DNA of 64,000 nt from Phycisphaerales bacterium (GTDB lineage Bacteria; Planctomycetota; Phycisphaerae; Tepidisphaerales; Tepidisphaeraceae). The stretch covers positions 1 to 64,000 of the forward strand of contig JAQGHM010000067.1 of the NCBI GenBank assembly GCA_028291615.1, written 5' to 3'. Positions 12,417 through 14,299 of the stretch are shown here, in pieces. The position numbers and the translations under genes were made by a program. The notes under the pieces were generated by a model that ran no database searches, was not told the origin of the DNA, and saw only the letters and a program-made list of their open reading frames with translations. Position 1 is the first letter of the stretch. Each line of letters begins with the position of its first letter.

Positions 12417-12837
12417 CGTCTCCGCGATGCTGCGCGAGGGATTCGAACCCCCATCGACCGGATTTTGAATCCAGCGCCTCTACCGGTTGGGCCAGCGCAG
12501 CGGAATCAAAGGATGAATGATGGAGGCGGAAGGATGAATCGGAAAAACATTCGCCTGATTCATCCTTCATCCTTCCCGCCTTCACCCTTCTCTTTGCCGT
12601 AGGTGGGATTCGAACCCACAACACGCGGGGTTTAAGCCCGCTGCCTCGTGCCGTTGGGCTACTACAGCTTGCAATCCTCAGCAGCTCCTCCACCTCAATC
12701 GCGCCGTCGTCCCGGCGCACCAGGCGCAGATTGCCGATCACCAGCTCGGTCCAGGGGCCGAGATAGATGCACTCACGATGATCTTCAAAGACCGCGGATA
12801 GCTCATCGGTATCCAAGATTCGACTGGGGTAAGGCAC
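12394..12837 (-). CDS. Hypothetical protein whose frame runs through two tRNA genes
   Basis: A GTG at 12837 follows a good Shine-Dalgarno (AAAGGAG, 8 bases away). The first 60 residues look like a real protein (start VPYPSRILDTDELSAV, then ECIYLGPWTELVIGNL). The frame then reads without a stop through tRNA-Leu(TAA), spacer 1 and tRNA-Leu(CAA). The natural 3' end was probably replaced when tRNA genes came to lie here, so the protein is either chimeric or no longer made. No family recognised. Confidence 0.3.
   Translation of the reverse strand: MPYPSRILDTDELSAVFEDHRECIYLGPWTELVIGNLRLVRRDDGAIEVEELLRIASCSSPTARGSGLKPRVLWVRIPPTAKRRVKAGRMKDESGECFSDSSFRLHHSSFDSAALAQPVEALDSKSGRWGFESLAQHRGDVTSRRLH
12428..12501 (-). 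tRNA. tRNA with anticodon CAA (leucine codon UUG), class-I shape
   Basis: 74 nt with a perfect 7-bp acceptor stem (GCTGCGC/GCGCAGC), A73 and no encoded CCA. The anticodon arm CTGGA-TTCAAAA-TCCGG closely resembles bacterial tRNA-Leu(CAA). The variable loop is only 5 nt (TCGAT), whereas bacterial leucine tRNAs normally carry a long variable arm. Last gene of the array. Confidence 0.85.
12508..12594. repeat. Palindromic heptamer-repeat spacer 1 in the tRNA array
   Basis: The left arm 12511-12540 (GGATGAA units) and the right arm from 12557 (CATCCTT units) are inverted copies that pair perfectly over at least 12 nt at the loop end. The left arm is repeated with one mismatch at 12958-12987. Confidence 0.75.
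12595..12668 (-). tRNA. tRNA with anticodon TAA (leucine codon UUA), class-I shape
   Basis: 74 nt. Acceptor GCTGTAG/CTACGGC with one T-G pair, A73, no CCA. The anticodon stem GCGGG/CCCGC is perfect, with loop CTTAAAC. The variable loop is 5 nt (GTGTT) instead of a long arm. Confidence 0.85.
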
Positions 12838-12874
12838 GCGATCATCTCCTTTCAAAACAAACTAACAACCACAA

Positions 12875-12949
12875 TGCTGCGGGCGGGATTCGAACCCGCA
12901 CTATCCGGGATCTCGGCCCGGCGCCTCCTACCGATTGGGCTACCGCAGC
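12875..12949 (-). tRNA. tRNA with anticodon GAG (leucine codons CUC/CUU), class-I shape, C33
   Basis: 75 nt with perfect acceptor GCTGCGG/CCGCAGC, A73 and no CCA. The anticodon stem CCGGG/CCCGG is perfect with loop CCGAGAT, so position 33 is C rather than the near-universal U. The variable loop is 5 nt (ATAGT). Confidence 0.8.
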
Positions 12950-12955
12950 GAATCG

Positions 12956-13050
12956 AAGGATGAATGATGAAGGCGGAAGGATGAATCAAATGCGGCGAGG
13001 CTTGCACTCTGATTCATCCTTCATCCTTCCACCTTCATCCTTTCTTCTTC
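12956..13050. repeat. Palindromic heptamer-repeat spacer 2 in the tRNA array
   Basis: The left arm 12958-12987 matches that of spacer 1 with one mismatch. The right arm from about 13014 is its inverted, partly shifted copy built of CATCCTT heptamers. The loop region differs from spacer 1. Confidence 0.75.
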
Positions 13051-13052
13051 AG

Positions 13053-13127
13053 TGCCACAGGTGGGATTCGAACCCACACTGTCCGGATTCTGAGACCGGC
13101 GCCTCCTACCGATTGGGCTACCGTGGC
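13053..13127 (-). tRNA. tRNA with anticodon CAG (leucine codon CUG), class-I shape
   Basis: 75 nt. Acceptor GCCACGG/CTGTGGC with one G-T pair, A73, no CCA. Anticodon loop CTCAGAA is closed by a T-T mismatch above four GC pairs. The variable loop is 5 nt (ACAGT). It shares the D-arm sequence AATCGGTAGGAGGC with the GAG tRNA. Confidence 0.83.
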
Positions 13128-13130
13128 AAG

Positions 13131-13218
13131 GATTCAGTAGGCAGTAGGCGGTCGGCAGTCGGCAGAGAGATTTCTCCTTCTTCTCTGCCTACCGCCTACT
13201 GCCCACTGCCTACTACTC
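13131..13218. repeat. Palindromic heptamer-repeat spacer 3 in the tRNA array
   Basis: Left arm of CAGTAGG-type heptamers, right arm of CTACTGC-type heptamers. The two are inverted copies that would fold into a long imperfect hairpin around a TTTCTCC loop. Confidence 0.75.
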
Positions 13219-13222
13219 AAGC

Positions 13223-13311
13223 GGAAGCTGCAGGAGTCGAACCTGCCAGGCCCCGTAAGAGGCCCCCTGGTTTTCGGGACCAGTCCCCGCGCCAAGAGGG
13301 TCAGAGCTTCC
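13223..13311 (-). tRNA. tRNA-Ser with anticodon CGA, class II, C33
   Basis: 89 nt with perfect acceptor GGAAGCT/AGCTTCC and a long variable arm with a 6-bp stem (GGCCTC/GGGGCC), as expected for serine. The anticodon stem CTGGT/ACCAG is perfect, and the loop CCCGAAA has C at position 33 instead of U. No CCA is encoded. Confidence 0.85.
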
Positions 13312-13361
13312 AGTATTTCTTTTCTCGCTTCTCACTACTCACTTCTCGCTTCTCTTCCAAA

Positions 13362-13432
13362 GAGCACGACAGGAGTCGAACCTGTGAGAATCCGGGCTTG
13401 CAACCCAGCCGCCGACCGTCGGCATCGTGCTC
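13362..13432 (-). tRNA. tRNA-Cys(GCA)
   Basis: 71 nt. Perfect acceptor GAGCACG/CGTGCTC; anticodon arm CTGGG-TTGCAAG-CCCGG. No CCA follows. The 50 bases between it and tRNA-Ser(CGA) are a one-sided run of TCTCGCT/TCTCACT-like heptamers. Confidence 0.85.
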
Positions 13433-13442
13433 GAACAAACCA

Positions 13443-13528
13443 TGGGTGCGGAAGGACTCGAACCTCCGTCGGTCTCATGGAGACTCCAGATCTACAGTCT
13501 GGCGCAATCGCCGCTCTGCCACACACCC
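13443..13528 (-). tRNA. tRNA-Tyr(GTA)
   Basis: 86 nt class II tRNA. Acceptor GGGTGTG/CGCACCC, A73, anticodon stem CCAGA/TCTGG with loop CTGTAGA. The long variable arm (AGTCTCCATGAGACC) is normal for bacterial tyrosine tRNA. Confidence 0.88.
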
Positions 13529-13531
13529 AGA

Positions 13532-13618
13532 TCAGTAGGCGGTAGGCAGAGGGCAGATGGCAGAAAGGACATGCCACCTCTGCCTACTGCCTACTGCTTA
13601 CTGCTTACTGCCTACTGT
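13532..13618. repeat. Palindromic heptamer-repeat spacer 4 in the tRNA array
   Basis: The left arm has degenerate CAGTAGG-type units. The right arm is a run of about five CTACTGC/TTACTGC heptamers in tandem. Same unit family as spacers 3 and 5. Confidence 0.7.
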
Positions 13619-13621
13619 TCA

Positions 13622-13694
13622 CGCCTCGTACGGGAGTCGAACCCGTTCCAACACCTCGACAGGGTGCCATGCGATCCCGTTACACCAACGAGAC
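13622..13694 (-). tRNA. tRNA-Asp(GTC)
   Basis: 73 nt. Acceptor GTCTCGT/ACGAGGC, anticodon loop CTGTCGA closed by CACC/GGTG. No CCA. It lies only 16 bases from tRNA-His. Confidence 0.85.
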
Positions 13695-13709
13695 CAACCG
13701 TTCTTCACA

Positions 13710-13781
13710 GGGCGAGCAGGGGAATCGAACCCTCGCCACGACATTCACAGTGTCGCGTGCTGCCACTACACCAAACTCGCC
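13710..13781 (-). tRNA. tRNA-His(GTG)
   Basis: Acceptor GGCGAGT/GCTCGCC with C73; anticodon stem CGACA/TGTCG and loop CTGTGAA. The base before position 1 is T in the DNA, so the G-1 typical of histidine tRNA is not plainly encoded unless the acceptor register shifts. The T-stem has one A-C mismatch. Confidence 0.82.
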
Positions 13782-13831
13782 ATCGCGCAAACCTTTTAGC
13801 GGCTCCGCTTGCGGAGCGCGTCCAACACCAG

Positions 13832-13921
13832 CGGAAGAGGAGGGACTCGAACCCTCACCGCCCAATTAAGCGGACACGTTTAGCAAACGCGTGCGACGAA
13901 ACCGATATTCGCCTCTCTTCC
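13832..13921 (-). tRNA. tRNA-Ser(GCT)
   Basis: 90 nt class II tRNA with perfect acceptor GGAAGAG/CTCTTCC and discriminator G. Anticodon stem CGCGT/ACGTG, loop TTGCTAA, long variable arm (TCCGCTTAATTGGGCGG). Confidence 0.87.
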
Positions 13922-13924
13922 AAT

Positions 13925-14007
13925 TCAGTAGGCGGTAGGCGGTATGCAGTAGGCGGAAAAGAGAAATCAGTTTCTGCCTACCGCCTACTGCCGACTGCCT
14001 ACTTCCT
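13925..14007. repeat. Palindromic heptamer-repeat spacer 5 in the tRNA array
   Basis: Left arm of CAGTAGG/CGGTAGG heptamers and right arm of inverted CTACTGC/CTACCGC heptamers around an AGAAATC loop. Long imperfect hairpin like spacers 3 and 4. Confidence 0.73.
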
Positions 14008-14010
14008 CCA

Positions 14011-14082
14011 TGCCCCCGCCAGGAATCGAACTTGGATCTCGAGCTTCGCACGCTCGCGTGGTTTCCATTCCACCACAGGGAC
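14011..14082 (-). tRNA. tRNA-Arg(GCG)
   Basis: 72 nt. Acceptor GTCCCTG/CGGGGGC with two G-T pairs, A73, anticodon stem CGAGC/GCTCG and loop GTGCGAA. Most bacteria read CGC/CGU codons with an A34 (inosine) tRNA-Arg(ACG); here G34 is encoded, so TadA editing is not needed for this tRNA. Confidence 0.83.
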
Positions 14083-14136
14083 GAATCTCGCATTCCCTCT
14101 CGCTACTCGCTTCTGACTTTTCGCTTCTCTCCTCAT

Positions 14137-14209
14137 TGCCTCCGCCAGGATTCGAACCCGGAACGCAGCGTTCGAAGCGCCGCATGATCATCCGTTTCAA
14201 CACGGAGGC
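14137..14209 (-). tRNA. tRNA-Arg(TCG)
   Basis: 73 nt. Perfect acceptor GCCTCCG/CGGAGGC, A73, anticodon stem CGGCG/CGCTG with loop CTTCGAA. No CCA. Separated from tRNA-Arg(GCG) by TCTCGCT-like heptamers. Confidence 0.86.
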
Positions 14210-14225
14210 GTATGATTTTCTTCAG

Positions 14226-14299
14226 AGCCCGTTGCCGGGGTCGAACCGGCGACTCGTCGCTACGAGGGACGCGTGATGCCGCGACTTCACCAAGCGGGC
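14226..14299 (-). tRNA. tRNA-Thr(CGT), divergent
   Basis: 74 nt. Acceptor GCCCGCT/AACGGGC with one C-A mismatch; D-stem GTGA/TCAC; anticodon loop CTCGTAG with a C-C mismatch at the closing pair; T-arm GCCGG/CCGGC perfect; 4-nt variable loop. First gene of the array. It starts 5 bases after a terminator-like hairpin, so it has no room for its own promoter. Confidence 0.7.

Follow-up and report, generated by a model that had tools for sequence, protein, structure and literature searches.

The long variable arm of leucine and serine tRNAs is kept everywhere but in animal mitochondria, according to a 2023 review of tRNA identity (PMC9976931). What, then, is the role of four tRNA genes that pair leucine anticodons with short variable loops in a bacterium of the planctomycete class Phycisphaerae? 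They lie in the window, the 64,000-nucleotide stretch of DNA analyzed here, and were found by both ARAGORN and Rfam (bit scores are those of covariance model R2, described below):

12428 to 12501, minus strand, class I tRNA-Leu(CAA), 73.5 bits
12595 to 12668, minus strand, class I tRNA-Leu(TAA), 76.2 bits
12875 to 12949, minus strand, class I tRNA-Leu(GAG), 77.6 bits
13053 to 13127 (start at 13052 or 13053), minus strand, class I tRNA-Leu(CAG), 76.8 bits

The answer that we consider likely is that they are working leucine tRNAs, charged by leucyl-tRNA synthetase (LeuRS), and that they belong to a second, redundant set of tRNAs, probably a backup kit.

The first-pass annotation of the window had described four leucine-anticodon genes with well-paired stems, A73, and a short variable loop. 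This description was confirmed by ARAGORN, the run of which had been recommended there and which called all four genes on the minus strand, by Rfam RF00005 (55.2 to 61.1 bits against a gathering score of 29), and by individual folds. Each gene has an acceptor stem of 7 bp, a D stem of 3 bp, an anticodon stem of 5 bp, with one U.U mismatch in the CAG gene, a T stem of 5 bp, and A73. The variable loop is 4 to 5 nt long in all four, short of the long arm of class II. Refolding with a long arm had been named as a finding that would overturn the description, and folding returned no such structure for any of the four. The anticodon arm of the CAA gene had also been judged close to that of a standard tRNA-Leu, and its central 13 bases, GGATTCAAAATCC, are indeed identical to those of the class II tRNA-Leu(CAA) of the genome (L040). 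Thus, the four genes are real, well-formed class I tRNAs.

They belong to a 13-gene tRNA array (12428 to 14299), all of it called by ARAGORN on the minus strand. The other nine are as follows, with the arms of the serine and tyrosine genes seen in their folds:

13221 to 13311, minus strand, tRNA-Ser(CGA), class II arm present
13361 to 13432, minus strand, tRNA-Cys(GCA)
13442 to 13529, minus strand, tRNA-Tyr(GTA), long arm present
13622 to 13694, minus strand, tRNA-Asp(GTC)
13710 to 13781, minus strand, tRNA-His(GTG)
13831 to 13921, minus strand, tRNA-Ser(GCT), class II arm present
14011 to 14082, minus strand, tRNA-Arg(GCG)
14137 to 14209, minus strand, tRNA-Arg(TCG)
14225 to 14299, minus strand, tRNA-Thr(CGT), first in the direction of its strand

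The serine tRNAs (91 nt each) and the tyrosine tRNA (88 nt) keep their long arms, as had been noticed at first pass. With 13 genes, the locus is smaller than a tRNA array unit, defined by at least 20 clustered redundant tRNA genes. The genes dnaX and glmS lie 2 to 6 kb away, marking a chromosomal stretch and arguing against a prophage origin, which we rejected. The spacers of the array contain hairpin repeats made of GATTCATCCTTCATCCTTC and its complement (window positions 12505 to 12592 and 12950 to 13040), also present at two other tRNA loci of the genome, C171 and C347. About 81 copies of the repeat occur genome-wide with up to two mismatches, and a reversed-pattern control gave none.

The assembly of the genome (G000), 87% complete, comprises 6.9 Mb in 400 contigs, and 64 tRNA matches were found in it. 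For each of the anticodons TAA, CAA, CAG, and GAG, a single canonical class II tRNA-Leu gene lies on another contig (L039, L040, L046, and L047). A search for them had been proposed in the first-pass annotation, and since all four anticodons are covered by class II genes elsewhere, the four window genes are extra copies. Moreover, they belong to a second, divergent set of 28 tRNA genes, which is spread over four loci and covers all 20 amino acids:

C242, the window array, 13 tRNA genes
C171, five tRNA genes: Gly, Ala, Gln, Gln, then an EF-Tu gene, then Asn
C347, six tRNA genes: Val, Val, Ile, Lys, Met, Phe
C372, four tRNA genes: Glu (identified by eye from the sequence), Lys, Trp, Pro

The tRNA-Asn(GTT) of such arrays shows the opposite oddity to that of the leucine genes, an extended variable region, in two genera: 86 nt at C171 (L020, 5610 to 5695) and 84 nt in the relative G012 (L093, 12511 to 12594).

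Membership in a whole second set was missing from the first-pass annotation, which had offered three alternatives, namely acceptance by LeuRS, charging by another synthetase with recoding, and no use in translation; these were borne out only in part. Recoding would mean that another amino acid is inserted at leucine codons, either as a rule or during stress, and because class II leucine tRNAs with the same anticodons coexist, it would render those codons ambiguous. The one feature of these genes that favors it is the unusual tRNA body, and some allo-tRNAs with leucine anticodons do insert serine in Escherichia coli (PMC7609411). However, these unusual bacterial tRNAs have acceptor/T arms of 8/4 or 9/3, compared to 7/5 in the window four, in which A73 and C2 also speak against serine. 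No synthetase gene was found among the flanking open reading frames that were named, beside arrays with identified proteins, and members of the same tRNA family serve as UUR-leucine tRNAs in Actinobacteria, as described below. We therefore regard recoding as highly improbable, and a change of the genetic code by the window four is not supported.

A sequence pattern derived from these leucine genes matched at least 119 GTDB contigs, mostly of Actinobacteria, in which the class I tRNA-Leu is a lone chromosomal gene with the anticodon TAA, CAA, or TAG. In the complete genome CP015604.1, the class II tRNA-Leu genes read were TAG and GAG, the TAA gene was class I, and no tRNA match of at least 79 nt had the UAA anticodon. 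Likewise, in Corynebacterium pelargi and a Mycobacterium, CUN anticodons are on class II genes, and the UUR gene that was found is class I; part of the short tRNAs were read in these three genomes. Any tRNA that is the sole UUA reader in such organisms has to carry leucine, and on sequence grounds the class I family is an ordinary UUR-reading leucine tRNA in many members of that group. Covariance model R2, built from 39 actinobacterial class I tRNA-Leu genes and no others, gave the four window genes 73.5 to 77.6 bits, above every other tRNA of the genome (next best, 64.4 bits; canonical tRNA-Leu[CAA], 61.7 bits), and these scores identify them as members of the actinobacterial family. R2 replaced a nearest-isotype comparison by global alignment, which was dropped because cheap gaps made the neighbors meaningless. 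Both groups share the D arm TAGCCCAAY-GGYAGAGGC, a 5-nt variable loop, A15-U48, A20a, and A73. The actinobacterial gene is a lone housekeeping gene, mainly with UAA or CAA, whereas here the genes are extra copies that also include CUN readers.

Class I tRNA-Leu genes also occur on plasmids of Nostoc and mycobacteria, in no fewer than 120 viral contigs, and in the arrays from Cylindrospermum, Microcoleus, a Chloroflexaceae metagenome-assembled genome, and other sources. Within the phylum, a strict pattern matched 27 of 294 genomes, which is a lower bound, as G000 itself was missed. Four genomes of the same class (G201, G252, G263, and G347) have a single match each, a class I tRNA-Leu(TAA), as in Actinobacteria.

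Could LeuRS charge tRNAs of this shape? In E. coli tRNA-Leu, A73, A15-U48, G18G19, and A20a matter, the long arm is dispensable, including in variants without an arm, and C2-G71 repels SerRS (PMC9976931). All four window genes have A73, A15-U48, G18G19, A20a, and C2. These determinants are not specific to leucine, being present also in five other canonical tRNAs (Lys, Arg, and three Ala) and in three array tRNAs (Ala, Phe, and Arg); with eight other tRNAs of the genome sharing them, we rejected the five determinants as a sole test of leucine identity. Thus, they support, without proving, the leucine identity of the window four. One LeuRS was found in the genome and no second, and one strong LeuRS is present in each of 31 genomes, except G013, which has no full match. 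The single LeuRS of the cell would charge the window four, given that the bacterial enzyme reads A73 and the core formed by the D and T loops and not the variable arm, and the tRNAs would then read UUA, UUG, and CUN as leucine. The first of the three alternatives is therefore the one favored by the sequences, through the actinobacterial UUR family, the full complement of E. coli determinants, and the single LeuRS. Animal mitochondrial tRNA-Leu also lacks the long arm and is charged by LeuRS (PMC9976931), but it belongs to an organelle and probably lost its arm separately.

The fold itself appears to be under selection. Across 33 class I tRNA-Leu genes of G000 and related genomes, 99.1% of the cloverleaf stem cells are paired, with changes on both sides at 18 of 20 stem pairs. 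Double-changed cells numbered 191 against a shuffle mean of 51, and none of 500 shuffles reached as high, a comparison that is inflated by the kinship of the sequences; a sliding control, unaffected by kinship, lowered pairing to 37 to 46% when partners were shifted. These compensatory changes indicate that the fold is not due to chance, and they make the third alternative, no use in translation, unlikely. They bear equally on the idea that the genes are degenerate or silent leftovers of a phage or plasmid with no present role. The frequency of such arrays on plasmids and viral contigs and the dispersed repeats in the spacers of the window array would fit leftovers, but structure is maintained by compensatory changes across many genera, gene order and the second EF-Tu (EF-Tu2) are conserved, and the surroundings of the window array, with dnaX and glmS close by, are chromosomal. 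We consider this origin improbable.

A second covariance model, R1, built from the four window genes and used on related genomes, matched clusters in many of them, so that such sets do occur in relatives; a search of close relatives had been proposed in the first-pass annotation. The relatives' arrays contain 18 (G003), 25 (G021), 29 (G019), and 30 (G046) tRNA genes, and gene order is largely common to those of G003, G019, and G021. In G012, a closed relative of 7.2 Mb on one contig with 69 tRNA matches and arrays at several loci, the canonical class II tRNA-Leu genes, five in all, coexist with class I CAG, GAG, and TAA genes, and one of its two EF-Tu genes adjoins an array. EF-Tu2 lies within the array in G019, and the second EF-Tu of G018 is on a tRNA-free stretch. 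The EF-Tu2 of C171 (P0001) has a mean identity of 66% (maximum, 70%) to the housekeeping EF-Tu of relatives; in an EF-Tu tree, the three array-linked copies are set apart on long branches, in a group with weak to modest support. Outside the second set, the 87% complete assembly (L009 to L048) lacks a housekeeping EF-Tu as well as tRNA-Phe, tRNA-Trp, and tRNA-Thr(GGT), all probably lost in contig gaps. In relatives, tRNA-Thr(GGT) and the canonical tRNA-Trp flank tuf, and because these flankers are unseen as well, the absence of the housekeeping EF-Tu is probably an assembly gap; the duplication of EF-Tu in this organism thus rests on its relatives. A gene for an E1-like ThiF protein lies downstream of the G003 array, and its neighbor resembles, by eye, a gene beside the G021 array, which hints at a common flank (L081, 10038 to 11626, and L084, 15540 to 16412).

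Redundant tRNA arrays and a stress-induced trn operon are already known. The trn operon of Anabaena sp. strain PCC 7120, a redundant second tRNA set like the present one, has 26 genes, is silent, and is induced by translation antibiotics; the repressor of the operon, TrcR, has rtcB, slipin, and HNH genes under its control as well (PMC10272220). In relatives of our genome, such genes lie inside the array: in G046, genes encoding RtcB, a slipin/Band_7 protein, and an HNH protein are interspersed among the tRNA genes, and G032 encodes, on one strand, tRNA-Lys, tRNA-Phe, tRNA-Ile, slipin, a class I tRNA-Leu(TAG), an RNase T-like exonuclease, RtcA, and RtcB. These arrangements recall RtcB/RtcA repair operons, of which that of Salmonella responds via RtcR to tRNA halves (PMC7790460, with no mention of tRNA gene arrays). 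RtcB of G000 is encoded on C152 and C311, contigs other than those of the arrays, and no tRNA genes were found in the RtcB stretches of G000, G003, G011, G012, G016, G018, G019, and G033; a link of the second set to RNA repair in G000 is therefore suggested by analogy. The likeness to the Anabaena trn/TrcR system, together with the linkage to RtcB, slipin, and HNH genes in relatives, leads us to infer a backup kit with repair functions. The second tRNA set and second EF-Tu would form a reserve for translation that is turned on by damage to housekeeping tRNAs or by translation stress; leucine charging, expression, and the backup role of the window four are likewise inferred for this organism. 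Unlike the Anabaena operon, the present set is scattered across four chromosomal loci and comes with a second EF-Tu. An Anabaena-like cyanobacterial plasmid array, on pNSMS105 of Nostoc sp. strain MS1, also has class I tRNA-Leu. The array units of mycobacteria and of mycobacterial phages and plasmids (PMC5966550 and PMC12803027), which have been discussed in mycobacteria as putative antidefense elements (PMC12803027), share redundant anticodons, divergent sequences, and an embedded HNH gene, and a Mycobacterium intracellulare plasmid array includes class I tRNA-Leu, as the window array does; the mycobacterial units have at least 20 genes in one place, compared to 13 at the window locus.

The term "Leu" is absent from the main text of those two papers, and we found no statement on short-armed bacterial tRNA-Leu in the literature searched, which lay outside subscription journals, so that a prior report is possible. 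Such tRNAs contradict, on a large scale, the rule that exempts only animal mitochondria (PMC9976931), and their genes offer natural test molecules for the requirements of LeuRS. They are also a visible marker by which spare tRNA sets can be recognized, whether chromosomal, plasmid-borne, or in phages. In this bacterial class, the spare sets are associated with RNA repair genes and a second EF-Tu, so that the idea of backup translation can be tested directly.

Why should only leucine tRNAs have lost the arm? In the arrays of G000 and its relatives, all 22 tRNA-Leu genes are class I, and all 11 tRNA-Ser and all 5 tRNA-Tyr genes are class II. Plasmid arrays found through their HNH genes, and thus not selected by leucine, have 11 class I and 2 class II genes among 13 tRNA-Leu genes, with all Ser and Tyr genes class II, two of the records being near duplicates; no tRNA array was found within 10 kb of the plasmid HNH matches in Methylobacterium, Bosea, Paracoccus, Persicobacter, and Acaryochloris. 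This rule would be expected if the second set is a means of escape from tRNA-cutting toxins of the host or of phages: tRNA-Leu can go armless, as LeuRS needs no arm, and would be immune to nucleases acting on class II arms, and tRNA-Ser and tRNA-Tyr retain theirs, since SerRS and TyrRS use them. Septu cleaves the variable loop of tRNA-Tyr (PMC13096335), the short-armed tRNA-Leu occurs in many viral contigs, and two families show tight linkage to RNA repair genes. However, the short-armed tRNA is a housekeeping gene in Actinobacteria, so that the arm may have been lost for reasons other than nucleases. We hold nuclease evasion to be a possible but not the favored explanation, compatible with the backup-kit reading and not opposed to it. 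More speculative, and rather unlikely as a whole, is the proposal that this class keeps a chromosomal spare kit, comprising a full tRNA set and its own EF-Tu, in which arm loss of tRNA-Leu evades nucleases or toxins recognizing class II tRNAs and EF-Tu2 is tuned to the divergent set. The plasmid array of Nostoc sp. strain MS1 (L097, 13111) also encodes a tRNA with a CTA anticodon, a possible amber suppressor.
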